Shown piece after piece: positions 23,044 through 38,693 of a stretch of 44,484 nt of DNA (its first letter is position 1; every line of letters begins with the position of its first letter). The DNA is from Alphaproteobacteria bacterium. Lineage in GTDB: Bacteria > Pseudomonadota > Alphaproteobacteria > Bin95. The position numbers were made by a program, and so were the translations under genes. The notes beneath the pieces were generated by a model, which saw nothing but the letters and a program-made list of their open reading frames with translations, searched no databases and had not been told where the DNA came from. The stretch is taken from the NCBI GenBank assembly GCA_026710105.1, contig JAPORR010000138.1:333-44816 (forward strand). The letters run 5' to 3'.

Positions 23044-23136
23044 CGCACGACCTTCCCACTGCCATCGGGCCTAGAGACTGCCTTCGCGTCTCCGCGCTCG
23101 CAACCAGTCCAAGGAACCGGCCGGAAGGGAGAGATC

Positions 23137-23165
23137 GTGGCAGGAAGCCAGGGATGAGTTATAGT
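23137..23165 (+). promoter_or_regulatory. sigma-70-like promoter of the glutaredoxin-DinB gene
   Basis: GTGGCA (23137-23142, 4 of 6 matches to the -35 consensus) lies 17 bp from TATAGT (23160-23165, 5 of 6 matches to -10). The predicted transcript starts about 23 nt before the ATG at 23195. GAGAAGAGGG (23179-23188) is the ribosome binding site. This supports an expressed gene with its start before the TGA. Confidence 0.55.
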
Positions 23166-23194
23166 GGCGGCACAATGCGAGAAGAGGGTAGTCA

Positions 23195-23947
23195 ATGAGC
23201 GAGGCGATCAAGGTTTTCTGGCAGCCCGGTTGAACCAGTTGCCTGAGAACCAAGGAGTTCCTCTCGGTCCGTGGGATCGAGTTCGACAGCATTAATGTGA
23301 CGACCGATCCGACTGGCATGGACCAGCTTCGCGCCCTCGGTGCCCGGTCGGTTCCGGTGGTCTCGCGTGGCAAGGAGTTTGTCTTTGCCCAAGCGATTTC
23401 CGATGTGGTGGCGTTTCTCCGGCTCGACGAGGATGTCGGGCCTGCACTCTCCATGCCGGAGCTTGCTGCGACGCTCGATATGGTGCTCGCGGCAGCGGTG
23501 CGTTTCATTGCCCAGATGCCGGATGAGCGACTCGGCGACAAGCTGCCGGGACGGGACCGCACCTACCGCGTCCTGTTCCACCATATCTTCAACATTGCCG
23601 AGGCAACTATCTCGGCGCTGGAGAGTGGGAGCCCGGTCGCCTACGAGGCGCTGACGGCGCTGCCGCCCGACGACATGCGGACCGTGGCGGATATCGTGGC
23701 CTATGGCGAGGGCGTGCGCGCCCGGGTCGCCCGCTGGTGGGACACGGGGCCAAAACCGGACCCGGTGGACACCTATTACGGCCTGCACCCGCTGCATGAG
23801 GTGTTCGAGCGCACGGTCTGGCATCCAGCCCAGCATGTCCGGCAATTGATGCTGATCCACGAGATGCTTGGCATCGAGACCGCCCGCCCGCTCAGCGGCG
23901 AGGACTTCCGCGGCCTGCCGCTTCCCGAACAGGTCTGGGACGGCTGA
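23195..23947 (+). CDS. glutaredoxin-DinB fusion with in-frame TGA at the redox Cys (candidate selenoprotein)
   Basis: From ATG 23195 the frame reads MSEAIKVFWQPG, then TGA at 23231-23233, then TSCLRTKEFLSVRGIEFDS and onward without another stop to 23947 (250 residues). Residues 1-85 are a glutaredoxin fold; GARSVPVVSRGKEFVF includes the cis-Pro loop. The TGA stands exactly where relatives have the first cysteine of PGCTSCL, giving U13-T-S-C16. Residues about 95-240 form a DinB-like four-helix domain with metal-type histidines H129/H130 and H210/H214 (HPAQH). The start has a good ribosome binding site and promoter. Gene callers would begin at GTG 23297 and lose the redox site. Selenocysteine is an inference; a Cys-to-stop mutation is the alternative. 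Confidence 0.72.
23249..23268 (+). promoter_or_regulatory. possible SECIS-like stem-loop downstream of the TGA
   Basis: ACC (23249-23251) pairs with GGT (23266-23268), and AGG (23253-23255) with CCT (23260-23262). They enclose the loop AGTT (23256-23259), which has G at its second position. The loop begins 22 nt after the TGA, within the distance typical of bacterial SECIS elements. Stems are only 3+3 bp with an internal loop, and an alternative fold with loop TTC exists, so support is modest. Confidence 0.4.
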
Positions 23948-23955
23948 ACGCGGAA

Positions 23956-25281
23956 TTGCCGCCGTCGGCCGCGAAGCCTGTCCCATTCCGGGAGGCGCTG
24001 GCAGCCTGGACGCGGATCGGGTGTGCGAGCTTTGGCGGGCCGGCGGCGCAAATCGCCCTAATGCACCGCGTGGCGGTGGAGGAGAAGCGCTGGCTCGACG
24101 AGCCACGTTTCCTGCATGCGCTCAACTTCTGTATGCTGTTGCCAGGGCCAGAAGCGCAGCAGCTCGCCACCTATATCGGCTGGCTACTGCACGGCATACG
24201 CGGTGGCCTGGCGGCGGGCCTCCTGTTCATCCTGCCAGGCGCGGTTGTCATTGCGGCCTTCGCCGCCGTGTATGTGCTTTATGGGCGGCTGCCGGCGGTC
24301 GAGGCTGCGTTTCTCGGCGTGAAGGCGGCGGTGCTGGCGCTGGTGGTGGAAGCCTTGCTCAGGATCGCGGGCCGCGCGCTTAGGGATCGCTTCGCCTGGG
24401 GGCTTGCTTGCAGCGCCTTTGCCGCGCTGTTCCTGTTCGACGCCCCTTTTCCGGCCGTCATCGCCGCGGCAGCGTTGCTGGGCGGCGGGCGGGTGCTGCT
24501 CGGAGGCAGAAGCGGGCAGTCAGTGGAATCAGACATGCCTTTGTGCCCCAGCGGCTCAGCTACCACGCGCCACGGGACCGGCAGGCTAGCGTTCATCCTG
24601 CTCGCCATCTGGCTGCTGCCGACGGGGCTGCTGCTCGCCTGGCTTGGCGGCGGGCATGTATTTTCTATCATCGCTGTCTTCTTCTCGAAGATGGCGGTGT
24701 TGACCTTTGGCGGGGCCTATGCCGTCCTCTCTTGGGTGGCGCAGGAGGCCGTTGCCGCAAGGGGCTGGCTGTCGCCCGGTGAGATGCTGGATGCGCTCGG
24801 ACTCGCCGAGACGACACCCGGACCGCTTATCCTAGTGGTGGAATTCGTCGGATTCCTTGCGGCATGGCGCGAGGCCGGGGGGCTTGATCCCCTCGTGGCA
24901 GGACTGCTGGGCGCGGCACTCACGCTTTGGGTTACCTTCGCACCCTGTTTCCTATTCATCTTCGCTGGTGCCCCGCATGTCGAGCGGATGAGGGGGCGGC
25001 CTGGATTGCAGGCCGCTCTCGCAGGCGTGACCGCGGCCGTGGTCGGCGTGATCGCCAATCTCTCCGCCTGGTTCGCGCTTAATCTACTGTTCGCAGAAGG
25101 GGGGCGAATAGCGCCAGGTCCAGTCTCCGTCTATCTGCCGGACCCGGCGAGCCTCGACTCAAAGGCGCTCGTGCTGGCAGGGATCGCGGCGTTGGCGTTA
25201 TTCGTGCTCCGCCTTGGTGCGTTCCGCACACTCGCCCTTGCCGCGCTTGCTGGCCTCGCTCTCTTCGCGGTGGGTGCCTGA
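23956..25281 (+). CDS. chrA: chromate transporter, two-domain CHR family
   Basis: A 441-residue membrane protein with two homologous CHR halves. N-half: FGGPAAQIALMHRVAVEEKRW and LLPGPEAQQLATYIGWLLHG. C-half: FFSKMAVLTFGGAYAVLSWV and GLAETTPGPLILVVEFVGFL. The family exports chromate by proton antiport; some members may carry sulfate-like anions. The start is TTG 23956, 8 bp after the previous stop, since no in-frame ATG precedes the conserved FREALAAWTRIGCASFGGP. Tight spacing suggests co-transcription with the glutaredoxin-DinB gene, pairing redox stress with oxyanion export. Confidence 0.9.
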   Translation: MPPSAAKPVPFREALAAWTRIGCASFGGPAAQIALMHRVAVEEKRWLDEPRFLHALNFCMLLPGPEAQQLATYIGWLLHGIRGGLAAGLLFILPGAVVIAAFAAVYVLYGRLPAVEAAFLGVKAAVLALVVEALLRIAGRALRDRFAWGLACSAFAALFLFDAPFPAVIAAAALLGGGRVLLGGRSGQSVESDMPLCPSGSATTRHGTGRLAFILLAIWLLPTGLLLAWLGGGHVFSIIAVFFSKMAVLTFGGAYAVLSWVAQEAVAARGWLSPGEMLDALGLAETTPGPLILVVEFVGFLAAWREAGGLDPLVAGLLGAALTLWVTFAPCFLFIFAGAPHVERMRGRPGLQAALAGVTAAVVGVIANLSAWFALNLLFAEGGRIAPGPVSVYLPDPASLDSKALVLAGIAALALFVLRLGAFRTLALAALAGLALFAVGA

Positions 25282-35798: not shown

Positions 35799-38693
35799 AT
35801 GCTCAGGAAAAAGACCAACGGGGTTGCGAGACGCCCCCAGCGGACTTCGATCCTACCCAATATGTCGGAGGCATCAGTCGACCGGCGGACCTTCCTGCGG
35901 GGCTCGGGCCTCGCGATCGGAGGTCTGGCTGCTATCGGCGCCGCCGGTGGCATGGTGACGAAAGCCGAAGCGCAGCGGTCAGCGATGGGTGCGGTTACCA
36001 CGGCGAAATCGGTCTGTACGCATTGTTCGGTCGGTTGTACGGTGATCGCCGAGCTTGATAACGGCGTTTGGGTTGGCCAGGAGCCCGGCTGGGACAGCCC
36101 GTTCAATCTCGGTGCGCATTGCGCCAAGGGCGCTGCCGTGCGCGAGCATGCGAATGGCGAACGCCGCCTCAAATACCCCATGAAGAAAGAGGGCGGCGAG
36201 TGGAAGCGTATCAGCTGGGACCAGGCGATCAACGAGATCGGCGACGGCATGATGGCGCTCCGCGAGCAGAGTGGCCCGGACAGCGTTTACTGGCTGGGGT
36301 CGGCGAAGTTCAGCAATGAGCAGGCCTACCTGTTCCGCAAGTTCGCGGCCTATTGGGGCACGAACAATGTGGACCACCAGGCTCGCATCTGCCACTCGAC
36401 CACGGTAGCAGGCGTTGCGAATACATGGGGCTACGGCGCCATGACCAACTCCTACAACGACATCCACAACAGCCGCGCGATTTTCATCATCGGCGGCAAC
36501 CCAGCCGAAGCGCATCCGGTATCGCTTCTGCATGTGCTTAAAGCCAAGGAGCAGAACAACGCGCCGTTGATCGTGTGCGACCCGCGCTTCACGCGTACCG
36601 CCGCCCACGCTGACGAATATGTCCGCTTCCGGCCTGGCACAGATGTGGCGCTCATCTGGGGTATCCTCTGGCACATCTTCGAGAACGAGTGGGAGGACAA
36701 GGAGTTTATCCGCACCCGCGTCTGGGGCATGGATCAGATTCGCGAAGAGGTTGCAAAGTGGACGCCTGAGGAGGTGGAGCGCGTGACCGGCACGCCCGGC
36801 TCGCAGCTTCGCCGCGTCGCCCGTACCATGGCAAACAACCGTCCCGGCACCGTGATTTGGTGCATGGGCGGCACCCAGCACACCCAAGGCAACAACAACA
36901 CGCGTGCCTACTGCGTGTTGCAGCTTGCGCTCGGCAATATGGGCACCACCGGCGGCGGCACCAACATCTTCCGTGGCCATGACAATGTGCAGGGCGCTAC
37001 AGACCTCGGCATCCTGTCGCATACACTGCCGGGCTATTACGGCCTCTCCGGCGGCGCCTGGGCCCATTGGGCGCGTGTCTGGGAAGAGGACCTCGACTGG
37101 TTGAAGGGCCAGTTCGACATGCTCGAAGGCGCGGACGGCAAGAAAAAGCCCCTGATGAACCTGAAGGGCATTCCAGTGTCCCGCTGGATCGACGGCGTGC
37201 TTGAAGATAAGGCCAATATGGACCAGCCGGACAATGTTCGGGCTATGGTGCTTTGGGGCCACGCGCCCAACTCGCAGACTCGCGGTAAGGAAATGAAGAC
37301 CGCGATGGAGAAGCTGGACATGCTGGTCGTGATCGACCCGTATCCTACTGTCTCCGCCGTGCTTCATGATCGCACTGACGGCGTCTATCTGCTGCCGGCC
37401 TCGACGCAGTTCGAGACATACGGCTCTGTCACCGCTTCGAACCGTTCGATTCAGTGGCGTGAGCAGGTAGTGGCCCCGGTGTTCGAGAGCCTGCCCGACC
37501 AGAATATCATCGCGAAATTCGCCAAGAAATTCGGCTGGGCGGACCGGCTCTTCCGCAATATCAATATGGATGCGGACGACACACCGAATGTCGAAGACAT
37601 CACGCGCGAGATCAACCGTGGCATGTGGACGATCGGTTATACCGGCCAGTCACCGGAGCGGATCAAGATGCACATGGCCAATCAGCACACCTTCGACCGC
37701 ACGACTCTACAGGCGGTTGGCGGCCCGGCTGACGGTGACTATTACGGCATGCCCTGGCCTTCTTGGGGCCCGCCGGAAATGGGCCATCCCGGTACGCCCA
37801 ACCTCTACGACATGTCGAAGCCAGTTGCCGAAGGCGGTCTAACCTTCCGCGCCCGGTTCGGCGTGGAACGCAATGGCGAGAACCTGCTGGCCGAAGGCGT
37901 CTATTCCGTCGGTTCCGAGCTCCAGGACGGTTATCCCGAGTTCACCATGCAGATGCTGATGGATCTTGGGTGGGACAAGGATCTGACTGACGCCGAGCGG
38001 GCCGCCATCGACGCCGTTGCAGGGCCGAAGACCAACTGGAAAACCGACCTTTCTGGCGGTATCCAGCGTGTCGCGATCAAGCATGGCTGCGCCCCATTCG
38101 GTAATGCCAAGGCGCGGGCCGTGGTGTGGACCTTCCCGGATCCTGTGCCGCTACACCGCGAACCGCTCTACACGCCGCGACGGGACCTGGTGGCAGACTA
38201 TCCGACCTATGAGGATCGGAAGTTCTACCGCCTGCCGACCATGTACGCCTCGATCCAGAAGCAGGATTTCTCGAAGGACTACCCGATGATCCTAACTTCG
38301 GGCCGTCTTGTCGAATATGAGGGTGGCGGCGACGAGTCGCGGTCGAACAAGTGGCTCGCTGAACTCCAGCAGGACATGTTCGTGGAGATCCACCCGAAGG
38401 ACGCCAATGATCTCGGCGTGCGCAATGGCGCGCAGGTTTGGGTCGAAGGCGCTGAGGGCGCCAGGGTCAAGGTCATGGCTATGGTGACTGAGCGCGTCGG
38501 TGTCGGGGTCGTCTTCATGCCCTTCCACTTCGGCGGGCATTTCGAGGGTGCAGATCTGAGGCATAAATATCCCGAAGGCGCCGACCCCTTCGTATTGGGC
38601 GAGAGCTCCAACACGGCGCAAACCTATGGATATGACTCGGTCACGCAGATGCAGGAGACCAAGACCACTCTCTGCAAGATCTACGCGGCCTGA
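35799..38693 (+). CDS. fdhA: formate dehydrogenase major subunit (molybdopterin, Cys form)
   Basis: A 964-residue molybdopterin oxidoreductase that oxidises formate to CO2 in the periplasm. The twin-arginine signal is DRRTFLRGSGLAIGG (R29, R30). The [4Fe-4S] cluster uses C73, C76, C80 and C108 (CTHCSVGC, then AHCAKG). The Mo/W ligand is Cys198 in ARICHSTTVAGVANTWGYG, where E. coli FdhN has selenocysteine. The C-terminal molybdopterin-dinucleotide domain includes MILTSGRLVEYEGGGDESRS. GGAGGAGCAGA precedes the ATG. Subunits FdhB and cytochrome b follow directly. Confidence 0.96.
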   Translation: MLRKKTNGVARRPQRTSILPNMSEASVDRRTFLRGSGLAIGGLAAIGAAGGMVTKAEAQRSAMGAVTTAKSVCTHCSVGCTVIAELDNGVWVGQEPGWDSPFNLGAHCAKGAAVREHANGERRLKYPMKKEGGEWKRISWDQAINEIGDGMMALREQSGPDSVYWLGSAKFSNEQAYLFRKFAAYWGTNNVDHQARICHSTTVAGVANTWGYGAMTNSYNDIHNSRAIFIIGGNPAEAHPVSLLHVLKAKEQNNAPLIVCDPRFTRTAAHADEYVRFRPGTDVALIWGILWHIFENEWEDKEFIRTRVWGMDQIREEVAKWTPEEVERVTGTPGSQLRRVARTMANNRPGTVIWCMGGTQHTQGNNNTRAYCVLQLALGNMGTTGGGTNIFRGHDNVQGATDLGILSHTLPGYYGLSGGAWAHWARVWEEDLDWLKGQFDMLEGADGKKKPLMNLKGIPVSRWIDGVLEDKANMDQPDNVRAMVLWGHAPNSQTRGKEMKTAMEKLDMLVVIDPYPTVSAVLHDRTDGVYLLPASTQFETYGSVTASNRSIQWREQVVAPVFESLPDQNIIAKFAKKFGWADRLFRNINMDADDTPNVEDITREINRGMWTIGYTGQSPERIKMHMANQHTFDRTTLQAVGGPADGDYYGMPWPSWGPPEMGHPGTPNLYDMSKPVAEGGLTFRARFGVERNGENLLAEGVYSVGSELQDGYPEFTMQMLMDLGWDKDLTDAERAAIDAVAGPKTNWKTDLSGGIQRVAIKHGCAPFGNAKARAVVWTFPDPVPLHREPLYTPRRDLVADYPTYEDRKFYRLPTMYASIQKQDFSKDYPMILTSGRLVEYEGGGDESRSNKWLAELQQDMFVEIHPKDANDLGVRNGAQVWVEGAEGARVKVMAMVTERVGVGVVFMPFHFGGHFEGADLRHKYPEGADPFVLGESSNTAQTYGYDSVTQMQETKTTLCKIYAA

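Follow-up and report, generated by a model that had tools for sequence, protein, structure and literature searches.

A putative selenoprotein family joining a selenocysteine-containing glutaredoxin domain to a DinB-like domain

The gene at 23195-23947 of the window (the whole stretch of DNA analysed, 44,484 nucleotides) almost certainly encodes a selenoprotein, a conclusion reached without protein or selenium data. SelB and tRNA-Sec would decode the UGA at codon 13 as selenocysteine (Sec), directed by a hairpin about 37 nt downstream, and in the product an N-terminal UxxC glutaredoxin would be followed by a DinB/YfiT (S-transferase-like) metal-binding domain at the C terminus. This explanation as a whole is held with high confidence. 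The identity of the Sec residue, the SECIS element, the decoding machinery, the domain folds, the invariant redox pair, and the His triad are well supported by the sequences, not by experiment.

Predicted architecture and putative metal site

The gene, its upstream signals, and the residues discussed below are as follows.

23137-23165, forward strand: sigma-70-like promoter match, by consensus only (9 of 12 positions agree)
23180-23188, forward strand: purine-rich ribosome-binding site, AGAAGAGGG, ahead of ATG 23195, read from the sequence
23195-23947, forward strand: Sec-glutaredoxin/DinB fusion gene, 250 codons plus stop, from read-through translation and homologues
23198-23428, forward strand: glutaredoxin (Trx-fold) domain, residues 2-78 (PF00462; model match to 3zit and 7c10)
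23231-23233, forward strand: TGA codon 13, putative selenocysteine, the U of UxxC (homologues: TGA in 67 of 80, Cys in 13 of 80)
23240-23242, forward strand: Cys16, the resolving residue of UTSC, unchanged across the 67 homologues aligned
23444-23905, forward strand: DinB/YfiT (STL) four-helix-bundle domain, about residues 84-237 (PF12867; model match to 6iz2, 2nsg, and 8f5v)
23582-23584, forward strand: His130, first putative metal ligand, invariant in 67 homologues, analogue of BstA H67
23822-23836, forward strand: His210 and His214, putative metal ligands of the HxxxH motif, invariant in 67 homologues, analogues of BstA H160 and H164

When the TGA is read through, the sole internal stop of the frame is codon 13, whose context in the translation is WQPG-U-TSC-L; the terminator of the gene itself is also TGA. 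The first-pass annotation had described a single frame broken only at this codon, at the position of the first redox Cys between WQPG and TSCL, with promoter, ribosome-binding site, and both domains intact. Translation agrees with this description, with the promoter recognized by consensus alone, and both domains were matched by Pfam models: Glutaredoxin (PF00462) at residues 5-63, containing the UTSC motif (E 1.6e-10; 41.5 bits against a gathering cut-off of 22.9), and DinB_2 (PF12867) at residues 127-218 (E 6e-6; 27.2 bits against 24.8).

The AlphaFold2 model, built with 67 homologues, has a pLDDT of 95 and a pTM of 0.90. Its residues 2-78 match the glutaredoxin-like structures 3zit (Z 13.1) and 7c10 (Z 11.6), and its residues 84-234 match DinB proteins, 6iz2_B over 140 residues (Z 14.9; rmsd 2.3). 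The model and Pfam agree on the U13-T-S-C16 redox domain joined to a DinB-like domain, as had been proposed; metal binding itself is inferred.

The closest PDB sequence by profile is cGrx1 from Clostridium (Alkaliphilus) oremlandii (7c10, 7c12), and the glutaredoxin fold is common to both proteins. Native cGrx1 is a selenoprotein with Sec as the catalytic residue 13 and Cys16 as the resolving residue, and Cys13 was substituted for the structure determination (PMC7642778). However, cGrx1 is a stand-alone protein of 84 residues with a U-P-x-C motif and no DinB domain, whereas the motif here is U-T-S-C. The NCBIfam families UXX-star (NF041212) and HUGP/GUXX-star fusion (NF045501) also contain a Sec glutaredoxin-like domain, but their partner domain differs. 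Similarity to these models was weak (33.9 bits against a cut-off of 66 and 19.2 against 325, respectively), and the requirement for membership was not met.

The C-terminal part has the same fold and the same H...HxxxH triad as the DinB/YfiT STL superfamily, which includes BstA-H, mycothiol S-transferase, and mycothiol-dependent maleylpyruvate isomerase. The Z score of the model was 12.8 against the isomerase (2nsg), 12.0 against the S-transferase (8f5v), and 9.7 against 5wk0. Unlike the protein described here, these three enzymes have neither a glutaredoxin domain nor Sec. In the bacillithiol transferases of B. subtilis, which are metal dependent, H67, H160, and H164 are invariant (PMC5815605). 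His130, His210, and His214 are taken to correspond to this triad and show the same HxxxH spacing; the coordinates were not superposed.

An N-terminal Trx fold followed by an all-helical C-terminal domain is also found in cytosolic glutathione S-transferases (GSTs), which are listed by Foldseek. Their whole-length matches were rejected as evidence of homology, the rmsd being about 10-17 Å. The helical part here is DinB and not a GST C-domain, and any likeness is analogy only; the GST-like arrangement may have evolved independently.

With regard to function, redox plus metal-thiol chemistry is somewhat favored, an inference based on the fold and the residues with no activity data. The DinB domain would bind a divalent metal, and this site might activate a low-molecular-weight thiol or a thiol-linked substrate. 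Glutathione is a plausible thiol, because glutathione synthase is present in the genome. The Sec-glutaredoxin domain would reduce or resolve the mixed disulfide or the oxidized product, and the whole protein might act as a self-contained thiol transferase or a detoxifying reductase for electrophilic catabolic intermediates. A role in the detoxification of electrophiles or catabolic intermediates is inferred only tentatively. It should be mentioned that the DinB half of the selenoprotein might be merely substrate-binding or structural, the protein being a disulfide reductase specialized for one partner. Glutaredoxin domains are often dedicated to a single partner, and C. oremlandii Grx1, which has been proposed as the reductant of MsrA (PMC7642778), was counted in favor of this possibility. 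It seems rather unlikely, however, since the invariance of the putative metal triad in the 67 homologues favors metal chemistry.

Gene neighborhood

The adjacent downstream gene is the following.

23956-25281, forward strand: chromate-transporter (ChrA) gene (Pfam PF02417), with adjacency conserved only within the genus

The start of chrA lies 9 nt 3' of the fusion gene. The first-pass annotation had taken the two genes to be co-encoded, perhaps for thiol-dependent detoxification. The adjacency is kept within the genus, but outside it chrA is not a neighbor, and a general role of the family in chromate or metal detoxification is not supported. The genes found there instead encode, among others, amidases, TctC receptors, UbiD, FMN oxidoreductase, hydantoinase, PhyH, and enoyl-CoA hydratase. 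It is therefore improbable that the selenoprotein works together with ChrA as an enzyme that detoxifies chromate or metals, in spite of the short distance and the position kept in the genus. No conserved operon was found around the homologues. The varied neighbors point to catabolism without giving any single pathway; this is suggestive and not a test.

On plasmid p1318-3 of Roseomonas marmotae, a Cys form seems to share an operon with genes for an isochorismatase-family protein, an AtzG-like protein, and an amidase, which hints at the catabolism of amide-containing compounds. In three betaproteobacterial Cys forms (L076, L082, and L092), the next open reading frame shares about 11 nt with the 3' end of the gene, suggesting translational coupling; in L076 this frame encodes a TctC receptor.

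Decoding of the UGA codon

The genome containing the window is a draft assembly of 3.35 Mb in 246 contigs. The sel genes, named in the first-pass annotation as a check on its proposal, are all present. The tRNA-Sec gene selC was recognized by Rfam (73.6 bits against a cut-off of 47), and ARAGORN assigned to it the anticodon UCA. The selB and selA genes are adjacent on contig 229, and these two and selD score above the curated cut-offs.

Formate dehydrogenase is the commonest selenoprotein. No TGA interrupts its best alpha-subunit match in this genome (contig 35, 39683-41728), so formate dehydrogenase does not account for the kept Sec machinery here. A second large molybdopterin-oxidoreductase-like frame, with a partial formate dehydrogenase alpha match, is located at 36012-38531 of the window (C76:36344-38863).

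The homologues comprised the best 80 loci of named genomes, most of them metagenome assemblies, belonging to Alpha-, Beta-, and Gammaproteobacteria. Among these 80 loci, codon 13 was TGA in 67, TGC in 12, and TGT in 1, and no other codon was observed. Of the 56 genomes with the TGA form, 51 gave a match to selA, versus 4 of 18 with the Cys form (Fisher p 6e-8). One duplicate genome had been removed; the genomes are related, and the p value is therefore approximate. The five TGA-form genomes without a selA match are all draft assemblies, and a missing contig is the likely explanation, which has not been shown. The Sec and Cys forms were clustered on a quick tree: their labels required four changes versus about 17 after shuffling. 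This means either that the two forms have interchanged more than once or that long branches were poorly placed.

The putative SECIS element is located within the coding sequence.

23263-23281, forward strand: bacterial SECIS-type hairpin, CUCGGUCC-GUG-GGAUCGAG, with the loop at 23271-23273, 37 nt after the UGA

This hairpin covers bases 33-51 in a numbering that starts at the U of UGA. The published bSECIS model places the loop at a spacing of 16-37 nt from the UGA, with a G in its first two positions, and sets a stem of 4-16 bp and an MFE of -7.5 kcal/mol or lower (PMC13188914). The hairpin, with its 8-bp stem, GUG loop, and spacing of 37 nt, meets these criteria, the spacing being at the top edge of the range; the mean energy of the distal-type Sec forms was -8.66. 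Each of the 55 distinct Sec sequences of the distal type had the GUG loop, and 92% of their pair cells were standard. In 47 distinct rows, the helix was 92.3% paired versus 15-60% in slid versions, and RNAalifold, without guidance, predicted the core of this helix. Three helix pairs were changed on both sides across these rows. Such compensatory changes are few (six cells), because the same bases are constrained by coding. Compared with synonymous recodings, the mean z score of stability was -2.5 in the Sec forms, whereas the Cys homologues showed no excess (z 0.1). Within the genus, synonymous changes were found in 0 of 49 comparisons at codons 23-29 versus 33% and 24% in two stretches of codons 30-250. 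The predicted SECIS-type hairpin is thus specific to the Sec forms and absent from the Cys homologues.

An Rfam scan of 23100-24000 gave no SECIS match and only three chance-level hits, which says little, because bacterial SECIS elements are diverse. A proximal hairpin, GAAACUC-AAG-GAGUUUC, was seen in Reyranella and Acetobacteraceae; neither of its first two loop bases is a G, it is not shared, and the distal hairpin was preferred as the SECIS element.

Six Sec homologues (L061, L062, L063, L065, L094, and L097) lack the usual hairpin and have a different one, (A/G)CGAAAGA-GUU-UCUUUCGU, whose loop lies 23 nt beyond the UGA. The residues under the usual hairpin (SVRG/A) also differ in these homologues, and the tree puts the six together with one other, weakly placed, row. 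The different hairpin and the altered residues indicate that, as predicted from these alignments, a SECIS element at a new position has apparently taken the place of the usual one in these members of the family.

The sel genes, the restriction of codon 13 to TGA or Cys codons, and the Sec-specific hairpin all support the selenoprotein inference of the first-pass annotation. Transfer RNAs with the UCA anticodon that read UGA as Cys occur in some bacteria, and the homologues with Cys at residue 13 would be compatible with such a reading or with a changed genetic code. Insertion of an amino acid other than Sec is nevertheless very improbable: tRNA-Sec, selA, selB, and selD are present, the TGA forms track selA, the hairpin is restricted to them, and UGA also terminates the same gene.

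A frame of 216 aa is available from GTG 23297 inside the gene, and some homologues are annotated as "DinB family protein"; of these, the single example inspected proved to be a Cys form of full length. It might be supposed that UGA 13 terminates translation and that a separate DinB protein begins at this GTG. There is very little room for this, as residues 1-41 are conserved and begin the glutaredoxin fold, and the Cys forms read straight through.

Sec decoding is further favored by the recurrence of the codon. The TGA was found at codon 13 in 13 of 13 genomes of the same genus or family having the gene. In 190 related genomes, the full-length homologues had no internal TGA at all or just the one at codon 13. 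Additional stops in close relatives would have counted against the proposal; none was found in the related genomes, and the best 80 loci had no internal stop besides codon 13. The homologue genomes include those of the isolates Reyranella soli, R. aquatilis, and Acidisphaera sp. S103, and sequencing error is excluded because the TGA recurs in dozens of independent assemblies, isolates included. A pseudogene arising by a TGC-to-TGA mutation or an error would need only one base change, in a draft assembly, but is already refuted by the recurrence in three proteobacterial classes, with conserved flanks and no other damage, and the earlier view that a chance nonsense mutation was unlikely is borne out. 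A phylum-wide alignment search (E 1e-25; at most six candidates scored per genome) found one genome beyond the window's own and gives no basis for prevalence.

Relation to catalogued selenoproteins

In a 2026 catalogue covering 119 families and subfamilies of prokaryotic selenoproteins, glutaredoxin is listed but its fusion with DinB is not (PMC13188914). The Sec-glutaredoxin/DinB fusion was not found in the catalogues searched, and no NCBIfam model (June 2026) covers such a protein. No literature relevantly joining selenoproteins and DinB was found in a search limited to open-access papers, with preprints excluded, and priority cannot be claimed. The proteins probably constitute an undescribed selenoprotein family, in which a Sec-glutaredoxin and an STL (DinB) metal domain make up one enzyme and the SECIS element has moved along the gene.

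With this family, the prokaryotic selenoproteome would gain a widespread Sec-containing architecture, of which the gene would be truncated or missed by standard gene callers. The two hairpin positions in one family would provide a natural experiment on movement of a SECIS element while the protein is conserved. The protein may be one reason why this genome keeps its Sec machinery. Selenium would also be linked, for the first time according to the sources searched, to the large and poorly understood DinB/YfiT thiol-transferase superfamily.
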